Shown here: piece by piece, positions 12,190 through 61,029 of the stretch
How the letters are laid out: each line of letters begins with the position of its first letter
How positions within the stretch are numbered: the first letter of the stretch is position 1
Assembly: GCA_025449115.1 (NCBI GenBank)
Contig: JAHLKC010000120.1
Location: 61,503-125,502, forward strand
Direction of reading: 5' to 3'
DNA: 64,000 nt
Source: Chytridium lagenaria
Taxonomy: Eukaryota; Chytridiomycota; Chytridiomycetes; Chytridiales; Chytridiaceae
The notes under the pieces: model-generated
What the model was told of the DNA's origin: nothing
The model's input: only the letters and a program-made list of their open reading frames with translations
The model's database searches: none
Made by a program: the position numbers and the translations under genes

Positions 12190-13479
12190 ATGGAGGAGGA
12201 GCCAAAACCATCACACACTTCCTCAACCTCAGCACTCCGTCAACGTCGAGCCTTCACATCATCATTACCATCCTCCATCCATCCATCTCACCAAGATATC
12301 ACCACAACAACAACCACAACAACAACAACAACAACATTCTCCCATCAACTCCGTCGTCCCTCACAACTCCCTCCCCCTCCCGTCTCTCAGCATCTCTCAC
12401 CCTCTCCCTCCCCCCCTCCCCCTTCTACTACCCCTCCGTCTCCTCACCCTCTTTTCTCTCGGCTTCATCTTCTCCGTCATCATTGATCATCTTCAAAAGG
12501 AACACAATATCACTCGATACCCCGCAAACGTCTCTAAAGTCTTTAGAACGGCAAGTTGGGTGCCCCTCTGTTGTGGATTGAGTGGGTGTCTGGTTGGAAC
12601 CGTCTATCCCTGGATCGACGCTCTCTTGTTGAAAAGGCCTCAACGAGTGAGGAGAGAGTGGTCCTCTGTTATTAGGTAATGACCTATATTGCGTGCCGCT
12701 AGCAGCATATCATTCTACTTTATTGTCTCTCGCCAATGCGTCAGCATTGGGTATTATTGCTGAAGCAGCATCACTCTACTTTATTGTCTCTGGCAATGCG
12801 TCAGCATTGGGTATTTTGCTGCGCTAGCAGCATATTTTCTTTCTATAAATATCTCTCGCCAATTCCACCTGCTGCGCAGCAGCTTATCACTACTCCAACA
12901 TTCTATTTATTCATCACTATTTTAACTACTCTCATCTAACCCCAATGAATGATCAGATGTTGCGGTGGCTTCATTGGCGTCAACTACGCCGCCTCCAAAC
13001 TCCCCTGGACCTCCAACATTCAAGTCTCCATCACCCTCGCCCTCCTCGCTCTTGGTCTCTGGTTCCTCTTTGATCGAACATGGCACGGCTTTCTCATATC
13101 ATCCATCTTTGCGCTCATAGGAACATGGGTCGTGTACATGCTAGTCAAGCATGGAGCGTACAGGTAAACCCACCCCTCCTTTTTTTTTATGTTTATGAAC
13201 AGTATACTGATACTCTATAGTATCACAAACCCGACTTTTTCGGTGTCAGGTCATGGTTCCCCTGTATTCTATATTCATCAAGCATCTGTTTCGGTGCCAT
13301 CGGGAGACAACTAGCCGTGATCCCCTACCAACATCTTCAAGAAGGACCTAAATCGTCATTCTACACCTTCTTTTCAACCCCCCGTATGCACTTTGCTGAA
13401 CCTGTCATTAAACTACTTTCAATCGTTATCCTTACTACATCTATGAATCTCGGTGTTTTTTTTTTTAAGCGCGCATGAC
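12190..13479 (+). CDS. INSIG family ER membrane protein
   Basis: Insig-type protein of the ER membrane; in animals and fission yeast these bind sterol-sensing proteins and control HMG-CoA reductase and SREBP. The segment near 12460 (FSLGFIFSVIIDHLQ) is helix 1. WVPLCCGLSGCLVGTVYPW, then REWSSVIR, the exon junction and CCGGFIGVNYAASKL follow the human [20 protein letters not shown] stretch closely. LGLWFLFDR and, in the last exon, RSWFPCILY with FGAIGRQLA complete the family fingerprint. Exons: 12190-12675, 12957-13163, and from about 13234. Intron 1 (12676-12956) contains hairpin elements. The Ser/Pro-rich N-terminus runs through a (CAA)n tract where the frame shifts by one; one base also seems missing at the last acceptor. 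The reading frame ends at 13479, inside the start of the tandem array, so the true stop could lie earlier. Confidence 0.88.
12705..12885. repeat. double-hairpin elements, two tandem copies plus flanking palindromes, in INSIG intron 1
   Basis: A unit of about 62 bp starting TCTACTTTATTGTCTCT is repeated. Each copy holds two adjacent hairpins. Copy 1: CCAATGC-GTCA-GCATTGG (12733-12750) then TGCTG-AAG-CAGCA (12758-12770). Copy 2: CAATGC-GTCA-GCATTG (12794-12809) then TGCTGC-GCTA-GCAGCA (12817-12832). A further palindrome, CTGCTGCGCAGCAG, occurs near 12870. Stems are conserved or compensated while loop and spacer differ. This architecture matches the double-hairpin elements described from chytrid mitochondrial DNA (Allomyces), here apparently in a nuclear intron. 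Confidence 0.75.
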
Positions 13480-16430
13480 ATTGCCGCAAACCCCCCACCT
13501 ACCCTCGATTCCTAGTATCTGTCTTCCGTAAAACCCTATTGATTCATCATCACGAATAAAACGCCGTACCATTATTATTCCGCCTTTTTTAACGAGAAAA
13601 CGCATCCAACATATGCGCAACACGCTGACAACGTCGAAACCTGAAAATAGCACCACTGTTATACTACCCGCTCTCTACATCATATTCAACCTTTTCTCGG
13701 CGCGCACGACAATGCCGCAAACCCACCCTCGATTCCTAGTATCCGCCTTCCGTAAACCCCTATTCAAAATTCATCCATCACGAATAAAACGCCGTACCAT
13801 TGTTATTCCGCCTTTTTTATAAAGAAAACGCATCCAACATACGCGCAACACGCTGACAACGTCAAAACCTGAAAATAGCACCACTGTTATCCCGCACTCT
13901 ACATCATGTTCAACCTTTTCTCAGCGCGCACGACATTGCCGCAAACCCACCCTCGATCCTAGTATCCGCCTTCCGTAAACCCCTATTCAAAATTCATCCA
14001 TCACGATAAAACGCCGTATCATTGTTATTCCGCCTTTTTTAAACGAGAAAACGCATCCAACATACGCGCAACACGCTGACAACGTCAAAACCTAAAATAG
14101 CACCACTGTTATACTCCCCCACTCTATATCATGTTCAACCTTTTCTCGGCGCGCACGACATTGCCGCAAACCCACCCTCGATTCCGAGTATCCGTCTTCG
14201 TAAACCCCTATTCAAAATTCATCCATCACGAATAAAACGCCGTATCATTGTTATTCCGCCTTTTTTTAAACGAGAAAACGCATCCAACATACGCGCAACA
14301 CGCTAACGTCAAAACCTGAAAATAGCACCACTGTTATACTACCCGCACTCTACATCATATTCAACCTTTTCTCGGCGCGCACGACATTGCCGCAAACCCA
14401 CCCTCGATTCCTAGTATCCGCCTTCCGTAAACCCCTATTCAAAATTCATCCATCACGAATAAAACGCCGTACCATTGTTATTCCGCCTTTTTTACACGAA
14501 AAAGCGCATCCAACATACGCGCAACACGCTGACAACGTCAAAACCTGAAATAGCACCACTGTTATACTACCCGCTCTCTACATCATGTTCAACCTTTTCT
14601 CGGCGCACGACAATGCCGCAAACCCACCCTCAATTCCTAGTATCCGTCTTCCGTAAACCCCTATTCAAAATTCATCCATCACAAATAAAACGCCGTATCA
14701 TCGTTATTCCGCCTTTTTTTATACGAGAAAACGCATCCAACATACGCGCAACACGCTGACAACGTCAAAACCTGAAAATAGCACCACTGTTATACCACCC
14801 ACACTCTACATCATATTCAACCTTTTCTCAGCGCGCACGACATTGCCGCAAACCCACCCTCGCTTCCTAGTATCCGCCTTCCGTAAACCCCTATTCAAAA
14901 TTCATCCATCACGAATAAAACGCCGTATCATTGTTATTCCGCCTTTTTTAATACGAGAAAACGCATCCAACATACGCGCAACACGCTGACAACATCAAAA
15001 CCTGAATAGCACCACCGTTATACTACCCGCACTCTACATCATATTCAACCTTTTTAAACGCGCACGACAATGCCGCAAACCCACCCTCGATGCCTAGTAT
15101 CTGTCTTTCCGTAAACCCCTATTCAAAATTCATCCATCACGAATAAAACGCCGTATCATTGTTATTCCGCCTTTTTTAAACGATAAAACGCATCCAACAT
15201 ACGCGCAACACAACGTCAAAACCTTAAAATAGCACCACTGTTTACTACCCGCACTCTACATCATGTTCAACCTTTTCTCAGCGCGCAAGACATTGCCGCA
15301 AACCCACCCTCGATTCCGAGTATCCGCCTTCCGTAAACCCCTATTCAAAATTCATCCATGACGAATAAAACGCCGTACCATTGTTATTCCGCCTTTTTTT
15401 AAACGAGAAAACGCATCCAACATACGCGCAACACGCTGACAACGTCAAAACCAGAAAATAGCACCACTTTTATACTACCCGCACTCTACATCATATTCAA
15501 CCTTTTCTCGGCGCGCACAACATTGCCGCAAACCCACCCTCGATTCCGAGTATCCGTCTTCCGTAAACCCCTATTCAAAATTCATCCATCACGAATAAAA
15601 CGCCGTACAATTGTTATTCCGCCTTTTTTTAAACGATAAAACGCATCCAACATATGCGCAACACGCTGACAACGTCAAAACCAGAAAATAGCACCACTTT
15701 TATACTACCCGCACTCTACATCATATTCAACCTTTTCTCGGCGCACGACAATGCCGCAAACCCACCCTCGATGCCTAGTATCCGTCTTCCGTAAACCCCT
15801 ATTCAAAATTCATCCATCACGAATAAAACGCCGTACCATTGTTATTCCGCCTTTTTTTAACGACAAAACGCCATCCCACATACGCGCAACACGCTGACAA
15901 CATCAAAACCTGAAAATAGCACCACTGTTATACTACCCGCACTCTACATCATTTCAAACCTTTTCTCGGCGCGCACGGCAATGCCGCAAACCCCCTCGAT
16001 TCCTAGTATCCGTCTTTCGTAAACCCCTATTCAAAATTCATCCATCACGAATAAAACGCCGTATCATTGTTATTCCGCCTTTTTTTATACGACAAAAACG
16101 CATCCAACATACGCGCAACACGCTGACAACGTCAAAACCTGAAAATAGCACCACTTTATACTACCCGCACTCTACATCATGTTCAACCTTTTCTCGGCGC
16201 GCACAACATTGCAGCAAACACCCTCGATTCCTAGTATCCGTCTACCGTAAACCCCTATTCAAAATTCATCCATAACGAATAAAACGCCGTATCATTGTTA
16301 TTCCGCCTTTTTTTATACAAGAAAACGCATCCAACATAGCGCAACACGCTGACAACGTCAAACCAACCTGAAAATAGCACCACTTTTATACTACCGCACC
16401 CTCCATGTCATGTTCAACCATACTCCATTA
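13440..16430. repeat. tandem array, 13 copies, period about 227 bp
   Basis: The anchor TGCCGCAAA recurs at 13482, 13713, 13937, 14162, 14388, 14614, 14844, 15071, 15294, 15524, 15752, 15982 and (as TGCAGCAAA) 16210, spacing 223-231 bp. Each unit carries the same ordered words: CGCGCACGACATTGCCGC, CCTATTCAAAATTCATCC, ACGAATAAAACGCCGTA, TTGTTATTCCGCC, ACGCATCCAACATACGCGC and AATAGCACCACT. Copies differ by point changes and homopolymer indels and have no conserved reading frame. The array starts at the 3' end of INSIG and stops about 230 bp before the desaturase stop codon. Confidence 0.95.
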
Positions 16431-47204: not shown

Positions 47205-49474
47205 TTTCAAATGATTTATTAATAAAACAAATCTGTCCGATCCCGCTCCCAGAGCTAAGGATGGCACACGGTAGAAGATGGGAGAGAATAGAGAAGGGAG
47301 TCTGGGTACATAGAGAACATCACGGCCCGCCGGCGGGATCGTGTGAGGAGGAGTGTGTAGGAAGGAAGAGGTAAGGAGGGGAAGAAAGGAAGAAAAGAAA
47401 TTGAGACGGAAGCAAGCCCATTTTACACTCAGCCTCAGGATCTAACCATATCTAGCCGGGCGACAATCCGTATAAACAAGAAGAGTAAAAAGGGGAGAGG
47501 AAAAAAAGTAAAAGGTTAGTCGGTCCACTTGTCAGGCTATCGAGTGCTCCGGGCTGTGGGGGTTAGTAGTGCATCCGGTACATACAAAGAAACATGGGAA
47601 AAGGAGAGAAGGCTAAGGTGAAACAAGAAAAGAGACACTACGGAGGATGACTAGGGGGAGAAGACTAAACAGAAAAAAGAAGGAAAATGGGCATGCTACG
47701 GGGGGTCCTTCAGGTTCAACCCTCCCCAGAGGCGATCGATGATTTCTTGAGCGGCATGGAGGATGGGAGCACTGAGTTCCCCACCTGACGCCGCGTCGGC
47801 GGTCCATCTGCGCAAATTCAATTTCCGCGGTGTTGAAGGTGAGATCTTGGCATGGTAGAAGGTGAAAAGAGGCGTGAGCGAATACGTTCAATGGCGGCGA
47901 CGACGGCGTTGATCTGGGGTCGGTGACGTTTCTTGAAGGTGAGGCGGGAGATGGCGGAGTCGAGAACGGTAGCGCCTGGTGCAGGATGAGGAAGGAGGTT
48001 GGGAAGTGGAGGTGGAGGTCAGGGCTGACACCAGCGCAAATAACTGCGTGGGCTCGGGAGACTGCGATGTTTGGTCCGCATTGACCGCATGGCTGGTGGA
48101 TAGCAACGCGTCCAAGGAGCCAGAGGAGGAGTGCACGTTGTTGGTGACGGCCGAGGAAGGTGCTTGCTGCGATGAAAGGGTATGAGACCCGCGGGGGAGG
48201 ATGGGGAAGAGGCGGGCAATCTTGCTGGCTGAGGTGTTGCGGAGGTGGGTGAGGTCTTCAAGGTGGTGGGATTTGAGAAGTGGTTCAGGGATATGGGCAG
48301 GGGACTTGGGTAGGCGGCCAACTTGAGGGACATAAAGGGGGGGAGTGAGTAGGTTGAGTGCAAAGGCTTTCTTTGGGATGCGAGGCCATAGGGGGTTCTT
48401 CTTGACGCGGTGAATGTAGGAGAGGGGGTTGGTGGGGTTAGGGTAAGTCGAGCGGTAGAGGCAGACAGCAAGGTTGGATCGGTCGTTAGAGTCGTGGATG
48501 CGGAGGTACATCTTTGCATTGAGAGTGATATTACGGGAGGTCATGGTGGGGAGATTGGCGAGGAGATGCATGGCGGCGATGCTGGTTGACGCACCAACGC
48601 TAAAGAGAGTGCGAAGGGCAAAGTCTTGGGTACGTTGGAGGGGCGAATCTCTTCTTGAGTGAGGAGTCTGAGGGCAAGGCCATATTCGAGGAGGGGACGG
48701 ATGAAGGATTTATATAGGCGGATAGAGAGGGAGGGTCGCCAGCCAGTGCAGTTCATTCCTTGGTCGCGGAGGAACACGATGAGTCGTTCGCGCTGGCCTG
48801 AACTCGAGGACGTAGGGATTCGGTCATGTCAAACACCACGGTCGGCCATCATCATTCCAAGGTATCGGGAGAGGACTTTGAAGACAAGGGCGATTCCATT
48901 GAGGGTGAGGGGGTGTTCCGGCGGCTGCGCCGCCACAAAGATGGTCTTTGTCGCGTTAAAGGTGAGCCCTACTTCCACCGCCCATTCATAGCATGCATTA
49001 AGAAGGAGTTGGAGGACAGCATGATTTGTGTGAAAAAGGACAGCATCGTCGGCAAGGAGTAGAAGATTAAAAAGAAAACCATTGATATCTACAACACTAA
49101 CGGGGTGGGGAGGTCTATGACTACAGAGCGGAGGTGAATGGGAAGGGGGTTTATAAAAAAGTTGAACAAATCCGGTGCATCTACAGTACCTTGGAGCAGG
49201 CCACGGAGTACAGCAATAGCATCTGATTTGAAACCGAGAACCCAAAAGAAAAGCAAGGTTAAAATCAAATAAAGCACGTAGAATAGGAAACAACATAGAC
49301 AGTGGTGTTTGAGCGAAAGAGGGCAGAACCAAAATTAAGATGCGGAGAAACGAGTCCAAAGTATGCGGCGGTCGACCGTGTCATAGGCTGCCTTGATGTC
49401 GAGATAGACGCATTTGAGGTTGGGCGTGGTGTTAATGGTCTCTTGAAGGACGAGTACCTGATCCAAGCATGAGC
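47205..49474 (-). mobile_element. LINE-type non-LTR retrotransposon, 3' part
   Basis: The minus-strand sequence encodes non-LTR reverse transcriptase blocks: SCLDQVLVLQETIN, VYLDIKAAYDTVDRRILW (motif A), LLQGTVDAPDLFNFFINPLP, LLLADDAVLFH (the FADD-type motif C), LTFNATKTIFVA, YLGMMMADRGV, then IRPLLEYGLALRLLT and a long C-terminal region ending LWGGLNLKDPP at 47696. Frames shift repeatedly, so it is defective or poorly sequenced. About 490 bp of C/T-rich 3' UTR reach AATAAATCATTTG near 47210. The 5' side breaks at 49474, exactly where the proposed LTR of the gypsy element begins; the missing N-terminal half of the RT and any endonuclease would lie beyond the window. Confidence 0.8.
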
Positions 49475-50513
49475 TGTGAAGTTCTCTCTATGGCCCCCTC
49501 TGCTAAGCCCCGGCATACAGAGGTAGAGAACCACATAATAGGTGACAAGACTAGCGTCTAGGAAGTACTCCTAGATCAAGAGTCAAGCCCTATTCTGCCT
49601 TTAGTGACAGCGGGGATTTAAGTTGCTGTGGTTCTGCTCTAAAACTAATCATATGAAAGAAAGGAAGGAAAAAGGAAGGAAAAAGTACTCAGGCGGAGAT
49701 CCAACGCGCCCAGAGTGGAAGGGTCATCAAGGAGGGAGTCCATCCCGCTCCTAGTAGTGTACAAGGCCTCGTAATCGCCGCAATAAGCCGTTTTAACATG
49801 TTCTCATCTGATCTCTTCTACCTAAGGCCCTGCTCATGCCGCACTCCCACTCACAGGCAACTAGATAGCCAGTCATCGCAATCGAGAAAAGAACAGAGGT
49901 GGTTATACTACCCAAACCTTCGAAGGAATCATGCCACAGAGGCGTCTATCCAGGGCTCAGGCCTTCTTAGACTCAAGTGTCTTGGTTCAAGGTGTAGTCT
50001 CCCCCAGCGGCGTAATCCCCGAGCGCCCGCAGGTACAACTAAATAACACAATATTGAATAACAGAAGAATGAAGAAAGCATGGCCCAAGGGCAGCCATGC
50101 CTGGATGTATGGGTGGGATCAATCCAGGACTACAGAGGTGCACGTAAATCTATTCAACTTTCTACAAATAATAAAACAATACATAAAGGGGAATCAAATA
50201 ACAACACAGGCATCTCGACCAACGTGGTAGCATGTCATAAGTTGGCATACCACGTCGACCGCCCTTCCTTCTATAAAAACCTCTCTCGTATCTATGGGGA
50301 AAAACTATGAAAAACCCCGAGAGGGAAAAGAATGGAACGGGAACAAGGAAATAAGGATAAGGGCACGACGTCTATATAAGCGACGCATTCATGCCTCTCG
50401 GTGAGGTTATCCATAATCTCACATGCACCCACACTTGAGAACAAGGTCCCTCGTGAGTTTTTACGATAAATATATACATATCTTATATAGACTAGTAAAG
50501 TGTAGTGAATACA
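49475..50513 (-). repeat. proposed 3' LTR
   Basis: The forward segment starts TGTGAAGTTC and ends GAATACA, i.e. TG..CA type ends on the minus strand (TGTATTC...CTTCACA). It follows directly after the last coding frame, contains a TATA-like CTTATATAGA at 50371-50380 and abuts LINE coding sequence at 49474. The polypurine tract next to it is poor (TAGAAGACTT). The partner LTR is outside the window, so the ends are provisional. Confidence 0.45.
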
Positions 50514-50526
50514 AAGTCTTCTAAAG

Positions 50527-51560
50527 CTAAGGGTACATCATCATGCTTAGCTTTTCCGTGTCTTCACGTGGAGAGACAAGTTCTATTGGATTCAAATGTT
50601 GTGAGTCCTTATCACCGTTAATGTCATCATTCACATTAACTCTATTGTCAAGTTCTACCTCTGGGTGTGGAACTATGACTTCGTCTGACGTATTGCTGGA
50701 CAAACTCTTGGAAGCCAGCATTATCATTTGCGTCAGTAAAGCGAGTTTCTACTTTCTCGCGTTTAGGTATGCCGTGCTTATCAACATGGGCTAACCGTTT
50801 AAAGAATTCCTTAACTTGGTCTTGGCAATGCCGTTCCAATAATCTCGGACTATGCTGATGGAATCTCACGTTCTAGCAACCAAGTATTATGGTATGGGCC
50901 TTGTCCAAGCCATTTAACCTTATACTCATACTCTTTACCATTCTCAAGAGTATGATCTTCTAGTCTTTCGACATAAAACTCTGGGTCATCATATTGACCT
51001 TCAGCAACATCACTATCAAATCTTTTGAATAGCTCTCTGTTCACACCTTCAGCAACTTTCATCCTTGGTCGACGCTGAAGAACGGCAAACTTCTTCCAAA
51101 GCTCAATCTCTTGAGCAAAGTCATCATCAACAACACCTTTAGCTGCCTTATCGGCAGTATCCTGGGGTGGTATGATATTATATGGCCGCAATCTAGCAGC
51201 ATTAGCCTGTCTGGACAATAATCGACCATCTGGCAACACTTCTACAACAGTATATCTATTAAAGTCAGCAGATCTCGCGATGACTCTCATGGGTCCAGAC
51301 CAACGGAACTGGAACTTCTTGATCTGGGAATCCTCCCGACCTTGTTTGTCGGTTCTCAGAGGCATGGAGAACCATACTCGGTCTCCTATCTCAAATGCGT
51401 ATCTATCATTCCGCTTGAGAGAGTTAGCTTTCTCTTTTCGTTGGAGTTCCTCTCTCAACAGTAAAGCCCTAGCATAACTCAGTAATGCAGGCAACTCGTC
51501 AGCATAATCGCGTATCTTCTGACGTTCTTTGGCAAGATGTTCATCAATGAGTTTCTCTTG
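50527..51560 (-). CDS. gypsy pol C-terminus: GPY/F module and chromodomain
   Basis: The frame at 51494-50850 begins with a basic helix, then FEIGDRVWF and FQFRWSGPMRVIARS (the GPY/F-type core in which GP is followed by R/Y) and RLRPYN. After an acidic linker comes YVERLEDHTLENGKEYEYKV, then KWLGQGPYHNTWLLEREIP, a chromodomain with the aromatic-cage positions Y, W and (N)TW. The C-terminal helix continues in a shifted frame (SPRLLERHCQDQ). In chromoviruses this domain binds methylated histone tails and steers integration. A hydrophilic tail ends at 50527. Confidence 0.8.
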
Positions 51561-52215
51561 CTTACTTTTCTTCCCTCTTCATAGTGGAAGATCCCTCAGC
51601 ACCCACACTTTCGTGTGCGGTACCAAGTATGTTATCAACGAGAGACTCAACATCTTCTCGAGTTTGTATCAACACCATAGGGGTATCGACGTGATGATTC
51701 TTGTCCACCAACAAACGTATAATGTTAGAACCAGGACCCAAGGGCCACCGTCTAACTTATCGTATTCTTGGGTTGTAAAATACAACGTTCATCTAAGTAC
51801 ACATTCATAGTGTTCTTATCAACATAGGGCTTGTATGCTCTAAATTGCTTCCATATCACTGATGACACCTCGATGTATCATTATTACTTTAAACCCGATC
51901 TCTCGAGTTATCGCTCAGAGGTACTGTTCCCCATAAGGTGTAAAACAACACGGTCTCCACATCATTACCCTCTCGAGGATATCTCATATGAAACTTTCTT
52001 AAGTCTCGACGGTCGGCATCATAATTCTGTGGGCACACTAGATAAAATGCGGTCAAGTTGAACTTCATTATCGTGTCAGCGATAACTTCATGCAACTTTC
52101 GTGTACTCTTAGTTGGTAACTCATAAGTCAACTTGGATAAGGCTGACTCAATGGTGGCTATATATTGCGTATAGGCAACAGCAATTCGAGGAAATGAAAC
52201 AGCGTACTGCTTCAT
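51561..52215 (-). CDS. gypsy pol spacer between integrase core and GPY/F
   Basis: The frame at 52215-51889 (AVSFPRIAVAYTQYIATIES..., then HEVIADTIMKFNLTAFYLVC) has no family I recognise. It and the following low-quality stretch add about 200 residues where ordinary gypsy integrases have a short coil. It may be an unrecognised insert. Confidence 0.4.
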
Positions 52216-52219
52216 CCGA

Positions 52220-53160
52220 CTAGGAGGAGCATAGCTCTCTCCATATCGGCAGGATCAAGTAACGATACATTAATAAAAGGAACAGGCCTTCTTCAGCAGT
52301 CCACGTGCGTGGATCAGGGTATTCTTCAGCATAAACATCATCAGAAGATATATTTATACCAAACCGTAAGTCGGCAGGCGTGATAGGATCACGACCAAAC
52401 ATTAACAAGAAAGGAGTCTCTTTTGTAGTAGGATGCATAGTAGTTCTATATGCATAAAGGATATATGGTAAAACATTATCCCAATCAGCGTGTGTTCGTT
52501 GGTTAACATACGCACGTATCATCTGACATAAAGTCTTGTTAGTTCTCTCGACGAGACCATTAGCTTGAGGCCAATAAGGCATCGAAAAGGATTGGGACAT
52601 TCCAAGTATAATGGCACTTTGCGCATTAACTCGCTTGGGAAAGGGCTTCCGTTGTCAGAGTGCAGCGAGACTGGGATAACCAAATCTACAGAAGCACTGC
52701 TCAACAATAATCTTAGCGACAGTATTCGCTTCAATATCAGGTACAGCAAAGGCATCAGCCCAGCGTGTAAAATAGTCGGTAAGAACAACTACATACTTAT
52801 TCCCATTGATGGATTGTTTCAAGGACCAACAACATCAATTGCCACGCGGTCCCAAGGTTTATCACCTAATGGGACTGGCTTCAGGCGCACCTAAGCGCTT
52901 CAGATGATCTTTGGACTGTTGACATATTATACATGTGCTCACATGCGTATATAAATCTCTAGTGACGGTAGGCCACCAGAACCTCTCCAACATAGTCGGT
53001 AACAACTTTTTGGCACCCAAATGTCCACCAGTCATTATATCGTTATGGATCTGCTCCATAGCAACGATGTGTAAACTACTTGGCACACACAACGCTAAGC
53101 GTACAGGGGAACGCCTCAATAAATAGTTATTCACATGTTATAACTCGATACAAGAGTTTA
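52220..53160 (-). CDS. gypsy integrase
   Basis: Zinc-binding HHCC module: HNDIMTGGHLGAKK and CIICQQSK (53070-52910). The DDE core follows: WDRVAIDVVGPL (first Asp, about 52850), SDNGSPFPSEL (second Asp, about 52650, in a shifted frame) and QANGLVERTNK (Glu, about 52560), then YAYRTTMHPTTKETPFLLMF. It inserts element cDNA into the chromosome. At least two one-base shifts break the frame. Confidence 0.88.
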
Positions 53161-53449: not shown

Positions 53450-54321
53450 TCAACGTTTCAGTCCAGCGAGAAAAGGATCTTCTTGTTCTATCGTCAACTC
53501 TACGAGTTGATGGTCACTAAGTCCAGACATATATCTATGATGAACTGACCACCTAGCGTGAAGGCTAGGATCAATCATTATATAGTCGACCCTCCACAAG
53601 CTCTGGTGTCTGGCTTGCGGGTCATGCCAAGTATAACCTGGGTCGTGTGGATGGCAATGTCTAAAGCCATCAATGAAGCCATGCTTCTTATAAAAATACA
53701 ACTCGTTGAAGAGCTTAACTTCTTCTTGCTCAAAGCCAGAATAACCAACCATACGCATAGGAAAGCGTATGTCGAATGAGGAACGAGCTACATTAAAGTC
53801 GCCAGCGACGATAGTGCTCTTCCTATGTTTCATCTCCTCGATGAAACTATTGCATTTAGAGAGGAATCTCATTTTATAATCCTGTCTAGCTTGACTTCTA
53901 GACCCGTTAGGGACATACACGTTAACGACGTACATTCCGGGTAGAGAGATAGTCACGCATCGACCTTCACCTCCTTGGCTCCACTCGTTATCAGGAGCGT
54001 CCTCACGGAGACAGATGCCTCGGCGGGCCTCTTTCTCTATGACGGGGAGTCCCTTGCGGACAAAAGTAGCGACACCAGCATAACCGGATCTCATGTCATC
54101 GGCATGCACGTTCCAGTTCTCTAGGTTCATCAACTGATCCCAGAAGAGCTGTCTTTTCTGACTAATGCGTGTCTCTTGGAGACATACTATCTGATAACCT
54201 TGCTTCTCGAAATATCGAGCGAGGCATTCTGCGGATTGGCTTCATCGCCTTCCAACTTCTGTCCATAGAGGACCATGGCTAAGCGATGGAGTCCATTAAC
54301 ATTCCAGCTCACTATTCGTAG
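53450..54321 (-). CDS. ExoIII/APE-type AP endonuclease (EEP) domain inside gypsy pol
   Basis: A complete endonuclease/exonuclease/phosphatase fold of about 290 residues lies between RNase H and integrase. Motifs in order: LRIVSWNVNGL (metal-site Asn), IVCLQETRI (catalytic Glu), SGYAGVATF (Tyr), NVYVPNGSR, VAGDFNVARSSFD (Asp/Asn pair, about 53800), GYTWHDP, LWRVDYIMID (Asp) and GLSDHQLV (catalytic Asp-His, about 53515). All positions needed for AP-site or 3'-end cleavage by ExoIII/APE enzymes are there. One base-shift lies near 54228; the rest is open. Pattern spacing fits ExoIII rather than a LINE endonuclease. The frame ends at 53450; a Ser/Lys/Arg-rich linker leads to integrase. Confidence 0.85.
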
Positions 54322-54405
54322 CTTAGAGTCTTCAATCAATGGAGACTTCACTTTTGGGGAAGGTTTAAGTTCCTTCAACGTATTTGGTTTACAGTCGTTG
54401 ACCAT

Positions 54406-54815
54406 ATTCTCAGGTACTCTTGCAAAGTGCGTGGTACTATTAACTCCATACAACTCTAGTAAGGATAATGGATCCGTCTTACGCTCTTTCCGTTCAGGAA
54501 TAGGGTACGTAAGCTCGCGGATATCATAAATACGATAAGCATAATACTTTCTCATATATTCTCTAATCCCATTGACATAGGATCAGGAAACTCATTAGTT
54601 CCTGGGGGAATTGGTTTGGAGACATGCATGACGTGGGTAACGGCGCCATGCTTTCTATGAGGCTCGCCGCCTAGAGGATCTCTATCATCATTGATATTAA
54701 CTATCCAAATTCGTTTGAGACCATCTAGTCTCGCAGGATAATAGACATAGTCCTTAGTACCATTGATAATGTCTTTCAACGGTTCTGGTGTCATTCTGAC
54801 GAAGACATCAGATCT
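54406..54815 (-). CDS. PUA/ASCH-like segment joined to the endonuclease
   Basis: The last 86 residues of the frame that begins with RNase H read FVRMTPEPLKDIINGTKDYV, then LKRIWIVNIN and GAVTHVMHVSKPIPPG. The start of the next frame adds KYYAYRIYDIRELTYPIP and LSLLELYG. This arrangement (I/L..I..G.K.Y, a hydrophobic strand, G.V.HV....P, YYAYRI.DI.EL..PI) resembles ASCH/EVE-type PUA folds, which bind RNA or modified bases. Two frames overlap by an ATGA at 54555-54552, either reinitiation or a sequencing shift. The fold call is from pattern memory and needs a profile search. Confidence 0.5.
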
Positions 54816-55960
54816 CTTACTATACTGCAAGCTTTGACTCAGATTCTCTCTTGAGGGAATATGACTTTTTACCATGTTCACCCACACTTGAGAGGGCGAC
54901 GCATCAGCGAGACCAACACCTTCACTGTTATGGGAGGGAGGGCGGGCTATTACTGTCTTGGAATGCCGTAAGGGGAATTCTTCTAAAGCACGCGTAGGTA
55001 CATAAGTCCACAAGTGACGATCGGTGATAGTAAAGAAACACCGTATATCCTCAGGGACTAACATGTCCTGTAACTGCAGTACATTATATACTGTATAATC
55101 ATAACCTCCTTCTGATGTAGGGGAAGTGGTAGATAAAGCTTCACTAACTGTGAAGACGTAACGTAATTTATTAACAGGAGACTTCTCAAACACCCATACA
55201 CGGTCGACGCTGTCCGGCAGCGCAAACGGCAGATGAATGGTAGAGATGTTTTGTAACAGCACATCCATGACAATGGCTGGTTGAAGAGGGATAAGGGCAT
55301 CCTCTCGTGGTAATACGCTTTCAACGACTGTGGTAATAACTTCTTTCTCCTGAAAGAGTTCACTTTGGAGCATCATCTTGTTCTTAGGACGCGAATCTTT
55401 GCCGATATGTACTTTGGCAACATTTTCTGGAACAGTAACTACTGTATCATCGGAGGACGTTTCCGCATCCGCCTTAGGTTTGAAGATGCGAGATAGTGCA
55501 TCAGCAACAGCCTGACTCTTGCCAGGTGTATGGACCAACTCAATCTCATGATCCTGTAGGGCATATGCCCATCGAGCAAAGCGACCGCGTAAGTCCCCTT
55601 TAGAGAACAAAGGTATCAAGGCAGAATGATCTGTCTCAATGCGATATGGCTTGTGCCATGTGTATGGTTCAAATAAGTTTGCAGACCACACGACAGCTAA
55701 TCCTTCACGGTCAGTGTTGGAGTAGTTTTGTTCGGCTTTGTTAAGCGTGCGGGAAGCAAACGCGACAGGAAATAGTTCACCATCACGCTTCACAAACAAT
55801 GCAGCACCAATGCCATACTTGGATGCGTCGCAAGAAATGATAAACTCATCACCGGGTAACGGATTCGTTAACTGGACCTCGGCTTTTAATATAGCTATAA
55901 GTCGACGGAACGAGGACTCACAAGAGTCCGTCCAAACAAAAGGGTGTCCTTCTGCATCAA
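54816..55960 (-). CDS. gypsy RNase H and spacer
   Basis: RNase H: FVWTDSCESSF, IISCDASKYGIGAALF (first catalytic Asp), PVAFASRTLNKAEQNYSNTD with the Glu nearby, RIETDHSALIPLFSKGD and KSQAVADALSR. It removes the RNA strand during reverse transcription. A 200-residue spacer of unknown fold follows (VLLQNISTIHLPFALPDSVD, DMLVPEDIRCFFTITDRHLW), continuous with the ASCH-like segment. One base is missing in a C run where RT passes into RNase H (about 55960). Confidence 0.85.
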
Positions 55961-56701
55961 GTTAGTCAAAGGATGAGCAACATCAGAGAAGCTTGGTACA
56001 AAGCGACGAAAGTAGTTAGTGAAACCAAGAAAGCGTTGAATATCTAGCAACGATTTTGGGGTAGGCCATTCATCTAGCTTCTTTAACTTCTCAGGATCAG
56101 GCTTGATGCCATCCTTAGAAACGACGTGTCCTAGGAAAGGGAGAACGTTAAAGAAGAATTGGCACTTCTTGGGCTTGAGCTTTAAGTTATGCTCGAGTAG
56201 TCTGTCAATTACGAGTTGAAGACTTTCAAGATGTGAATCAACATCTTTTGAGAAGATGATAATATCATCAATGTATACCATGCAGTGCATCCATTTAAGC
56301 CCCGCAAGGACGGTATCCATACTTCTTTGAAAAGTTGGGGGACTATTCGTTAAACCAAAAGGCATAACGTCATATTCATAGAGTCCATCAGGCGTCACAA
56401 ACGCCGTCTTATGACGGTCCTCGGGTTTCATGGGAATCTGCCAGAAACCAGAAAGCAGGTCCAGAGATGAGAACATAGTGCTACCGGCAAGACGATCAAA
56501 CATCTCATCTATGCGGGGTAGTGGGTATTTATCCTTAACTGTGACGTTGTTAAGTCGGCGGAAGTCGGTACAGAAACGCATAGTTCCATCCTTCTTCTTT
56601 GCAAGACACACAGGTGAGGCAAAGGGGGAACGAGACTCACGGATGACTCCTGTTTTCAACATCTCGGCGACATGGTCGCGGATAATCTTGGCGCGCTCCA
56701 A
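55895..56701 (-). CDS. gypsy reverse transcriptase
   Basis: Canonical Ty3/gypsy RT: VIRESRSPFASPVCLAKKKD, FCTDFRRLNNVTVKDKYPLP, SSLDLLSGFWQIPM, TAFVTPDGLYEYDVMPFGL, YIDDIIIF (the YxDD catalytic motif, about 56265) and FLGHVVSKDGIKPDPEK, ending in the FLGFTNYFRRF connection segment. Confidence 0.95.
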   Translation of the reverse strand: MERAKIIRDHVAEMLKTGVIRESRSPFASPVCLAKKKDGTMRFCTDFRRLNNVTVKDKYPLPRIDEMFDRLAGSTMFSSLDLLSGFWQIPMKPEDRHKTAFVTPDGLYEYDVMPFGLTNSPPTFQRSMDTVLAGLKWMHCMVYIDDIIIFSKDVDSHLESLQLVIDRLLEHNLKLKPKKCQFFFNVLPFLGHVVSKDGIKPDPEKLKKLDEWPTPKSLLDIQRFLGFTNYFRRFVPSFSDVAHPLTNLMQKDTLLFGRTLVSPRSVDL

Positions 56702-57710
56702 ACCTACTGGTATGGTGGGGCATTGGGAGGCCTTGAGAAAGGCATAAGATCAACGGTGTGAACACCGGGGATTTGTTTCCCGTTACAACATATTCACGGA
56801 AAACATCGGCGTTGGTTCCTTTAACAAGGAATTGCTTTAATCGCTCCACAGTGTCTTTATCGGCAATATGGGAGTACTCAAACTTAGTGAGAAGTTCTTC
56901 ATTAGTGACGGGAGTCATGTTCTTAAGGTAATCCATACGGTCCTCACTGGTATAATCATTAGTCTGAAAACGTATTTCAGCTTCATTATTTATGATAGAC
57001 TCTTCAAGTGATTTCATATCATCACCAGATAAAAGCTGCTCGGGCGGACCCTCAGCACTTGGGAAGTTATCACCAGATATGTAACCTTCATCTTCAGTGG
57101 TCAAGTTAACCATGGGCATATGTTCGGGACACCATCATAGGGTCCCTGCTCTCATCGCTGTGGGTTCACCGACGTGGTTTATAGCTTCCTCAATCTTATT
57201 TTGAGGCCTATGGAACTTACGTTTCCGGGGAACCTTGGAGGACTTCTGACTAGCAGAAGGTTTCTCACCAGCAGCTATACTACAGAAATGGACATGGACT
57301 TCTTCTAATGTCTTTAGATGCGGGTTTGCAATCATTTCCGTGACAAAGAACAAAGTCAAGTTCACATCGTCATCAAACGCCTCCGATAGGGGAGCTATGA
57401 AATCTACCGTGGTCTGATCGGAATCATCAAAGAAGGCAACGGGTGTGCCCTTCCTAAGCCACTTGCCATGAGGCCCATGATGGGCTATCTGTAGGGGGAA
57501 AGGTTTCATATCCACCTTCTTGCGTTTGAATCCTGGGGAATCATCAGCAAGATACTTCATGCCATTCTCAAAGAGGTCATCATGAGAATAGATTGTTCGT
57601 TCTGAGGCGACATCTACATTATCCGTAGAAGGTTCAGCAATATAATACTTCTGTGGGGATATCCGGTAAACGGTCCATGGTGCACATAATCGTTGAACGC
57701 ATATATGGAT
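56702..57710 (-). CDS. gypsy protease-RT linker region
   Basis: Two hydrophilic frames (57560-57135 and 57119-56637). The second ends in the 'GVHTV' type strand that precedes RT in gypsy elements, with small frameshifts. No separate enzyme is recognised. Confidence 0.5.
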
Positions 57711-58364
57711 CTAAGTACACGTCTTCTGCGGCGACGCAACGGATAAGAGGTGTTTCACTTTATACGTAGGGCCAGCTTCCGTGACCTTTAGTGGGGTCTC
57801 GTAAGCTCTAACGCCTAAATCGGGGTGACTATAGTAATACTTCAGGGTACTTCTGCTTGTAAGTATATCCATGTAGAATCCGAGTATAACCGGCATGCCA
57901 AGGATAATAGGTTTTGGGCATTCTTTAACGATAAAGAATTCAAACCACTTTTTAACGTTGGGAGTGGAAGACCCTGGGGAAACGCTTAAAGTACACTTCC
58001 CTAATAATGGTTGTCTACCACCGATACCAGTGGAGTATTTTCCAGGTTTAAATGGAACGACATAAACTTCGCGTCCCTGCCGCATAAGATCATAAAGTAA
58101 AGATAATCTAATAACATTACAATTGGCGCCTCCGTCAAGAAGTGCGTCACCAATATAAATACCGGAAACTCGTGAACATATCTGCATAACGTGAGGTTGT
58201 TCATGATCTATGAGAGTCTGCGGGACCTCATCAAGAATAACGGGATCCGTTTGTATGTCCATGCAACACATTCCTTTGGACTTGTAATATAAATCAAGTT
58301 CATCTTCCGTAGTTTCACAACTTAGTACATGGGGCTCGAGTTTGGCGTCCAAAGACGCGTCCAT
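57711..58364 (-). CDS. gypsy retropepsin
   Basis: Aspartic protease: YIGDALLDGGANCNVIRLS contains the active-site triad as DGG instead of DTG/DSG, a variant also known in plant retroelements, and PKPIILGMPVI is the second-half ILG strand. It cleaves the polyprotein. The preceding 80 residues are linker. Confidence 0.75.
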   Translation of the reverse strand: MDASLDAKLEPHVLSCETTEDELDLYYKSKGMCCMDIQTDPVILDEVPQTLIDHEQPHVMQICSRVSGIYIGDALLDGGANCNVIRLSLLYDLMRQGREVYVVPFKPGKYSTGIGGRQPLLGKCTLSVSPGSSTPNVKKWFEFFIVKECPKPIILGMPVILGFYMDILTSRSTLKYYYSHPDLGVRAYETPLKVTEAGPTYKVKHLLSVASPQKTCT

Positions 58365-58832
58365 TTTTACGATGTTTTCACAAACGACATTGGTGCAAGC
58401 TTCTTTATTGAAGAGAGACTCCTTGTCCGTTATGGACGCAAATTCCTGTACACCACCGATACTTGAGTGTGTGTTTGTTCCACTATGCTGCTTCTCCAGA
58501 GGAGGTGTAGCGTCTGGCCACGGCGGTGTTAATACCGTCGGAGGGTCTCGTCTAAATCTACCTGGTAGAGATCTCGAGCGCTTAACAAATTGACGAAACT
58601 GTTTTGACGTTTTAGATTCTGAATCTAAACCTCTTGAAGCTGCAAGCTTCTCTACCCCCTTACGAAATAACGCGTCGCGTTTTTGACGGCGTGAAGGTCG
58701 TCGAGATATCGCCTTAATAAAGGTCTAGTTCCGTCATCGGAAACAGAGGAGTGAGCACTAGATATTGTGACAACAGTCGAAAGGATATCGAATGCGTTAT
58801 CCCGCATTTGCGAGGTGACGACAACAGGGATG

Positions 58833-61029
58833 TTATTCGGGCGGCGAACACGAACGAATGTGTACTGTAAGAACCTTCATCAAAGGGATAGTACCGCTTG
58901 GTGTGCTGGTGAACACCCGACATTGGTAGATTGGTAGACTAGTGGAGCTATCAACCAAGGGAACAACTTCATGAGTAGGAGTGACGTTATCGGGAACATC
59001 AGCGTCTGGAGAGGCGTCAAGGCACCATGCATAACAGGTGTCGTCCTCGTCGGTGCAATATCGACGGAAGTTGCCAAAGTCGGTTTTCAAAGCCAACGGT
59101 GAAGTAGTGCTTAATTGAATAAGCTCGCCAATCAAGAGCTCAGGTAAACGAGGTCGCGTAATAATGATAGAAGCCGCATAATGACGCTTCAAGTAATTAA
59201 TGTATTCAGCAAGCTGATCATCGCTTTCTGAAATGTATATGACCTTATCGGCAAAATCAGACGGAAAGTCCTTATAGCCAACAGCGTGAGATAAGACCTT
59301 ATCGTAGTCAAATTGAACCACATTAGTTTCAAAGGACCACACGTCGTCGTCTGGATTTTGACTCTTCCGTATAATAGGAGGAGGTGTTTTTATTGAAGGA
59401 TAAAAATGAGAACACGTAGTAAACAATAAACTAGAAGGCACTACATATTTTAAAACTTTTGTTGAGGATAAAAGTGGAGGCGTCATTGTAGGCGCGGTTG
59501 ACGTAGAAAAAGGCAGGGGTGGAATTTCTACTTTAGGGGGATTCCACTTAATTCTATCGAAATCGTCAGAAGGGTTCGTAAAAATAGAACTCTCACCACT
59601 AAACAAGGCATAGGCCCTCTGATGATCAGGACACACGTCTAGAGCATGGGTGCGGTGGAGGGGGCATATGAACATGCTCTCTGTCTGTCCAGCAGGTAAC
59701 TGGAGAGAAGATCGATCCTGTGAAGAAGGTAAAATCACAGGGGTTGGAGCCACTGGCGTCGCATTAGCAGTAGCGGGAGCGAAGCGAGGAGGTTCAACAG
59801 AGTTGTCGCGGGATCGATTAGTCCACCCACCCTTAAAGGTGGAAGTAGGAGGCATGGACCTAGCCATGTTACGACGAAATTGATCAGGATCGCGACGATA
59901 ATCAGTCATCTTAGCTTCAAAGGCTAAGATTTCAGGCCTCGACGGTGGAGCAAAGTCGGGGTCAAGAGATCGGTAATCTTCGATGGCGAATTCAGCAACA
60001 GCCTTCACGAACTTATCCATGAAAGTGCGGTCGGTAACGAGGGCAGGTAAAGACTCCTCAAAGCTAGTAAATGCGTAATTAATTAACGGTTTACGCACAG
60101 GAGACGTGCCAGGGGTTGCACGTTTTTCCACGCTGGCGAGTCTCTGCTCTAGAGCCTTGAGGGTATTGACCATAGTAGCATTAATATGGCCCGACGATCC
60201 AGCGTTAAACCGAACTTTAGATGCCATGCCGCGGAAAAGATCACTCATGTCCAGAGATGTAGAGTCCCATGCCTGACCATCAAACGTTTCAGTCTGGGCA
60301 GTGTTGGACCAGTCCAGTCAGAGCAACTCAATAAAAGACTTTCGGAGCTGATGATCCGACATACGTTTGACGCGAGGAGAACGTTATTCATGTCTCGAAG
60401 GCGAGCCCAGGATTTCTTAGGCGCGTCGGCAGAGTCGAAGTCCCAGTGAAACGAGTCAACGTCCTTGACGATTTTCGCGTCGGTCACCTTCTCAGCAAAA
60501 GAGGTACGAAACTCTTAACGAACGAATCCCAGGTCTCGGCATTAGTGCAAGACCCAGAAAACCATTTAGCTCCACCTCGAAACATCTTTTCAGCGTTCTT
60601 CGTTGAGTTGAAGGCGTCGTCCATGTCAAAAAAGGCGGGAGTGCTTCTAGAATTCGACACAGAGACCCCCTGTTCGAGGATATTACGGTAACGAGCGAGG
60701 AAAATCAATGCATCCTGCTCATTCCCTGAATTGTCGAAAGTCAATTCCTCGACGCGCTTGATAATGCGTTTACGAATGTCCCCATTGCTGGCAGAACCGG
60801 TGGCAGTGGTACTCATCAGAGGAACAACGACGGAAATATCGAGATACGGAACGAGACGATGATATTGAAGAGTCTCGACTAGAGTCAGAAGCGTGATGGC
60901 CTCCGTTTGATTGATATCCAGATGAAGGTCGGGAAGATAACGAGCGTGACGAACGTGACGATGTTGACGATAAAGAGTCACTAGAGGATCCAGGTGAGGA
61001 GGGCGAAAAAGCGTTCTCTTCAACGGCAA
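58833..61029 (-). CDS. gypsy gag-like region
   Basis: The part near 60600-60300 (AEKMFRGGAKWFSGSC, TWDSFVKSF, WARLRDMNNV) fits a retrotransposon capsid helix bundle. The long frame 60248-58833 (471 residues) begins with a coiled segment (LEQRLASVEKR). It contains CPLHRTHALDVCPDH, reminiscent of the CxxH...C knuckle in some gag proteins, then a long unassigned region. Frames change near 60485 and 60245. Confidence 0.6.

Follow-up and report, generated by a model that had tools for sequence, protein, structure and literature searches.

The window, which is the whole 64,000-nucleotide stretch of Chytridium lagenaria DNA analysed here, carries near its end a retroelement of the Ty3/gypsy type. 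On the minus strand, from 60.3 to 50.85 kb, we read in order a probable gag, a protease region, a reverse transcriptase (RT), an RNase H, a linker domain, an endonuclease-like domain of the EEP superfamily, integrase pieces and a chromodomain. The probable gag (58833..60317) is an open frame assigned by position only; the protease region (57711..58724) is assigned by position and conservation, and matches L009, a copy on contig C198, at 79% over 184 aa. Neither had a match in a Pfam scan. RT (55895..56749; RVT_1, PF00078, 7.9e-38) and RNase H (55400..55961; PF17917, 5.3e-29) are followed by the linker domain of ∼120-145 aa, whose approximate bounds (54400..54812) come from an alignment of six copies. 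The main part of the EEP domain (53450..54241) matches Exo_endo_phos (PF03372, 1.5e-15) and, by sequence, ExoIII/APE1 entries of the PDB, and its model matches AP endonucleases; its N-terminal strand (54187..54345) lies in an adjoining frame. Integrase is represented by the HHCC zinc-binding domain (H2C2; 52862..53137; PF17921, 9.5e-16), by the catalytic core and C-terminal region, here in two frames (51889..52654; 89% to L009), and by a frame that holds its C-terminal part together with the chromodomain (50850..51578; Chromo, PF00385, 2.9e-7, above cut-off; 78% to L009). The core piece at 52654-52220 matched rve_3 below the cut-off (6.5e-4).

The 3′ LTR of this copy, also on the minus strand (49473..50425; TGTGAGATT...CTTCACA, edges set by eye), was placed by comparing the window with locus L011, and in both lies ∼430 bp beyond the chromodomain frame. 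The 5′ LTR is outside our view and is expected beyond the contig end, because the contig, and with it the window, stops inside the element. The copy is split into many frames. Its 263-aa EEP frame contains the motifs E, Y, D.N, R.D and DH, and the N motif (SWNVN) sits in the neighbouring frame because the copy is frame-broken. Elsewhere in the window, a tandem array with a period of ∼226 bp and copies 82-92% alike occupies 13461-16419, within a region of strong negative GC skew.

From this broken copy the initial annotation had proposed a gypsy element with the order RT, RNase H, EEP, integrase and chromodomain. We searched the host genome (42 Mb, 356 contigs) for EEP and obtained 126 matching pieces. 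In L009, one frame spanning 2571 codons, and open on the side of the contig end, carries RVT_1, RNase H, EEP, H2C2, rve and Chromo in this order, which confirms the proposed arrangement; the integrase triad D-59-D-35-E (DD35E) is intact, the YIDD motif of RT is in the same frame, and the chromodomain match (PF00385, 4.1e-4) is below cut-off. A stop-free frame of 1604 codons on C95 has RVT_1, RNase H, EEP, H2C2 and rve, and another of 1145 codons on C76 has the end of RNase H, EEP, H2C2 and rve; on C6, integrase domains lie behind EEP. Because the same domain order forms one open frame in C198 and recurs in the stop-free frames of C95 and C76, chance and an assembly join are ruled out. The L009 and C95 frames place EEP between RNase H and integrase in a gypsy/chromovirus architecture, in which a single pol has integrase downstream of RT and RNase H (L009, L017) and the chromodomain comes after integrase.

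The arrangement is not restricted to these long frames. Thirty-two loci belong to the lineage of the window, defined by an RT at least 59% identical to the window RT, and EEP lies downstream of RT on the same strand in 29 of them, at a distance of 1.1-2.1 kb in 27 and of 5.1 and 6.7 kb in two. The element is multi-copy. Neither outcome that the initial annotation would have counted against its reading, namely copies without the domain beside insertion scars or a separate promoter or terminator at this locus, or an assembly join, has come about; EEP was missed only at the three other loci. In one of these the contig ends (C273), in another RT starts at the first base of the contig (C346), and in the third 1.2 kb at the expected place of EEP is an unrelated repeat (C115). 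The pairing count used 77 of 116 RT matches and 76 of the 126 EEP matches, apparent second pieces of listed copies having been dropped; for the 45 remaining RTs, EEP was found within 3 kb in seven and in none of the other 38. On C80, C114, C291 and C319, the same EEP fragment (45% identity each) is located between two oppositely oriented RT fragments, ∼3 kb to either side.

The LTRs of these elements have TG..CA ends, and an exact 4-bp target duplication was found by eye in six of 11 insertions of one subfamily. The other five comprise one near-duplication, three with none or an unclear one, and one that is rearranged (C95). On C50, an element whose EEP is now in two frames lies between two LTRs with the 4-bp duplication ATAT. 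The C11 element, a member of the divergent lineage considered below, has LTRs TGTGG..CCACA that are 98.4% alike, a duplicated CATC and, by eye, a TGG-type primer site. LINE-like ends were not seen among the insertions inspected. The EEP element on C95 (L034 and L017, C95:87000-101999) sits inside an element of the divergent lineage, because its flank matches L024 (71% over 153 bp).

When 40 of 359 candidates were scored, 949 bp of the window 3′ LTR recurred, complete or nearly so, at no fewer than 39 other places (95-99%). At least seven same-strand pairs of these copies are ∼3.9 kb apart (C219, C16, C261, C71, C6 and two on C50), and they are perhaps a recently amplified non-autonomous derivative. 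Between 2306 and 9297 of L012, direct repeats of ∼1 kb (97%), flanked by AGGG, surround a reversed piece with linker domain, EEP, IN and CHD. We had considered this repeat pair as the LTRs of the element itself, and dropped it because its orientation is opposite to that of the pol fragment there; as judged from its layout, this is a composite or captured piece.

The linker domain that precedes EEP is conserved, with 25-96% identity to the first of six aligned copies. It had been called 'ASCH-like' in the initial annotation, and it presumably does recall an ASCH/PUA-like pattern, by eye only; the label was not upheld by the curated families, since no ASCH family of Pfam, NCBIfam or PHROGs matched. 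Pfam gave no match at E up to 10 in any of the six copies and NCBIfam none in the two copies scanned, PHROGs yielded just a weak, unnamed family (0.018) in two of six, and against the PDB nothing but ribosomal L20 appeared (E 1.5-1.8). A search with the linker alignment (423 candidates) found two proteins, HDU67_001146 and HDU67_005703 of Dinochytrium kinnereticum; both are partial and annotated as hypothetical, and in both the linker domain is joined to the start of EEP. They are 61-70% identical to L009 and L010, the two copies of the window subfamily whose frames are open, and match the host loci compared at no more than 73% over any piece; the best match of HDU67_005703 in the whole host genome is 72%. 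No RT or integrase was seen in these two partial proteins. That the nearest relatives are found in Dinochytrium agrees with a chytrid context. When the C95 polyprotein served as query and matches were scored across linker and EEP, none of the 1096 candidates was at E up to 0.001, and a scan of viral contigs with the linker domain gave 14 pattern matches, none of which was confirmed. These negatives mean little, because the collections presumably hold few eukaryotic retroelements.

Although the window copy is frame-broken and a contig end falls inside the element, the view that the fusion arose in assembly, or by one isolated insertion into a single decayed copy, is practically untenable and was rejected, since the same order recurs on many contigs and in long open frames, one copy lies between two LTRs with a target duplication, and the fusion of linker domain and EEP is found in a second species.

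We then considered what kind of EEP enzyme these elements carry. All six element EEPs scanned, the divergent lineage included, score 128.6-160.3 bits against TIGR00633 (exodeoxyribonuclease III, xth), above its curated equivalog cut-off of 99.05 bits, as expected if they are of the ExoIII/APE type rather than the LINE type. With TIGR00195, NF010489 and NF008733, which are narrower in scope, scores stayed under the respective cut-offs. The LINE-type model PF14529 matches the window EEP only below cut-off, and L056, another EEP protein of the host genome, which does pass PF14529, is not matched by TIGR00633 at E up to 1. The six catalytic motifs claimed for the domain (N, E, Y, D.N, R.D and DH) are present in all seven whole in-frame element EEPs, a count that excludes L019 and the window copy, both frame-broken, and C6, in which the N-terminus is cut by the contig end; the claim stands for these seven, and for the window copy it stands apart from the N motif, which is out of frame. 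By sequence, the PDB returns mainly ExoIII and APE1 enzymes, led by a bacterial ExoIII-type enzyme (3.9e-26). Structure prediction, which the initial annotation had recommended, gave for the window EEP (mean pLDDT 80) a fold that matches AP endonucleases, with Neisseria AP endonuclease, APE1, Bacillus subtilis ExoA and Helicobacter pylori XthA among the top ten at TM 0.72-0.75.

A profile search with EEP gave 1178 proteins at E up to 0.001. Among the best 120 of these, every protein that has a name is called exodeoxyribonuclease III, and an organism is stated for five, all bacterial. The element EEPs are therefore like ExoIII/APE1 AP endonucleases in sequence (TIGR00633), in catalytic motifs and in predicted fold, but differ in being part of a retroelement polyprotein and in being just 25-35% identical to those best 120 proteins. 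When one bacterial ExoIII was compared with the host genome, 71 of 73 matches coincided with places found by the element EEP, and a standalone host ExoIII gene was not found among the genome matches other than the weak ones on C26 and C71. The layout of a LINE, with the endonuclease N-terminal to RT and neither LTRs nor integrase, is not what we see: EEP follows RNase H, and integrase and LTRs are present. A LINE fragment inserted into a gypsy element was likewise considered, and was rejected by the ExoIII-type score and the one open frame. We conclude that, on the strength of its sequence, the EEP in these elements is an ExoIII-family AP endonuclease by type.

The domain is found in more than one gypsy lineage. 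In elements on C11 and C115 (L024 and L025), which have an RT only ∼30% identical to that of the window and so represent a distant lineage, EEP is also located between RNase H and integrase; this lineage showed no linker-domain match, and no Pfam chromodomain in the frames scanned. The host genome also contains an EEP-less element, L029 on C222, with a frame of 1435 codons carrying protease, RT, RNase H, H2C2, rve, SH3_Tf2-1 and Chromo, in which the rve and Chromo matches are below their cut-offs and no EEP was detected at E up to 0.1; C148 and C23 match this element at 97-99.9%. A phylogeny of EEP, also recommended initially, gave a divided answer: the two EEP lineages are split off together from 23 ExoIII proteins of the databases, none of them eukaryotic (support 94/91), and the divergent EEP is unplaced when a very long LINE-type row is added. 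In the RT tree, which samples few RTs and has Ty3 as its only named reference, the two EEP lineages are separated from the EEP-less element and Ty3 (81/78). Taken together, this suggests that EEP may have been gained once, before the two gypsy lineages split.

In three close pairs of one subfamily, dN/dS of EEP was 0.015, 0.097 and 0.135. In 12 distant pairs, synonymous sites are saturated (pS 0.79-0.89), and pN is 0.18-0.41. Judged from these ratios, EEP is under purifying selection and has been retained while the elements multiplied. A considerable share of the transitions that separate close copies lies at CpG/TpG, a pattern that methylation of cytosine in the host fungus would give.

Retroelements with an EEP-superfamily endonuclease are familiar among the APE-type LINEs and Dualen, a non-LTR element with two endonucleases; these have neither LTRs nor integrase, and their endonuclease is N-terminal to RT and of the LINE type. 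The elements described here resemble chromoviruses (e.g. Tcn1-like fungal elements) in the RT–RNase H–integrase order, in HHCC and DD35E, in the C-terminal chromodomain, and in having LTRs and a short target duplication; they differ in that the chytrid elements add an ExoIII-type EEP and a linker domain between RNase H and integrase. The accessible parts of two papers on chromovirus-type elements do not mention EEP (PMC2864245; PMC3248453), and the second describes there 'complex' fungal elements with many extra inserted domains, unnamed and ascribed to multiple insertions. Captured enzymes are on record for other gypsy elements, namely an AlkB-like m6A demethylase in orchids and the archaeal-type RNase H of Archon/Chronos in oomycetes, according to the available sections of PMC9289625 and PMC5348765; these are alike in domain capture and differ in enzyme and position, the orchid enzyme being a separate ORF. 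PF03372 in fungal mobile elements has been assigned to LINEs, in the portion of PMC10799480 at hand. No LTR element with EEP was found in the titles and abstract beginnings of the top-ranked open-licence PMC papers. From the domains and their order, we take these elements to be a chytrid lineage of Ty3/gypsy-type LTR retrotransposons that has acquired an ExoIII-family AP endonuclease in pol, with RNase H on one side of it and integrase on the other.

What might such an element do with an AP endonuclease? In non-primate lentiviruses, dUTPase occupies the same position in pol, with RNase H before it and IN after it (PMC4531489; PMC2427051, in the parts available), and the second of these sources reviews retroviral uracil control. 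The two enzymes are alike as additions for DNA hygiene at one place in pol; they differ in that dUTPase is an unrelated enzyme of animal retroviruses and prevents uracil incorporation, whereas EEP would act on AP sites. By this parallel, our best explanation, about which we are evenly balanced, is that the polyprotein-borne AP endonuclease repairs or end-cleans element cDNA. EEP would be synthesised within Pol, enter the particle with it and, once released, act on the element's own DNA. There it would incise AP sites left after removal of uracil or damaged bases, and would clean blocked 3′ ends, so that RT could re-extend them and integrase would receive sound ends. This would amount to a particle-borne repair step, with integration itself remaining with integrase. 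A host glycosylase would be needed, because glycosylase and dUTPase families are absent from the element frames scanned with Pfam. Counting against repair, work on HIV-1 has connected particle-borne APE1 chiefly with degradation of uracil-bearing cDNA, not with its rescue, as far as the accessible text of PMC2427051 goes. More tentatively, one can picture an old, constrained LTR lineage with a base-excision-repair enzyme of its own, gained once before the two chytrid gypsy lineages split, in which EEP would repair cDNA inside the particle, convergent with the lentiviral dUTPase.

Instead of dealing with random lesions, EEP might trim nucleic-acid ends at set steps of replication: primer remnants might be taken off by a 3′ to 5′ exonuclease or RNase-H-like activity, or gaps and flaps cleaned up at LTR ends. 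ExoIII-family enzymes have 3′ exonuclease and phosphodiesterase activities, and EEP adjoins RNase H and integrase. We nevertheless find this unlikely, as other gypsy elements manage without EEP, the 1435-codon frame of the host genome being an example.

A specific action against host base-excision or deaminase defence, for instance cutting or masking AP sites ahead of host enzymes that degrade cDNA, would follow the logic of lentiviral uracil control (PMC2427051 and PMC4531489, as far as available). We think it improbable. A strand-biased C/T excess, nominal in one of five copy pairs (p 0.0044), was found in none of the five when CpG sites were set aside, and because the excess vanishes in this way there is no direct sign of deaminase or uracil pressure, which counts against the repair reading as well.

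The initial annotation also raised the prospect of an alternative integration route. LINE elements nick their targets with EEP endonucleases, and nicking of target DNA by the element EEP, in LINE-like or integrase-assisting integration, could be read into the 217-bp flank duplication of the C95 copy. This duplication looks more like rearrangement, because the 5′ LTR there is without its first bases. The intact DD35E, the TG..CA LTRs and the 4-bp target duplications indicate ordinary use of integrase, and EEP is above the xth cut-off whereas the LINE-type L056 is not matched by that model; such a route is thus not supported, and we regard it as very improbable.

Cleaning or repair of element cDNA is accordingly the reading we favour. 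LTR elements and retroviruses usually depend on host repair. If the reading is true, lesions in retroelement cDNA would be a selective pressure strong enough to fix a repair enzyme in the element itself. The element EEP is also a branch of ExoIII that spreads by transposition, and an ExoIII-type enzyme beside a gypsy integrase would offer a testable fungal counterpart to the lentiviral dUTPase.
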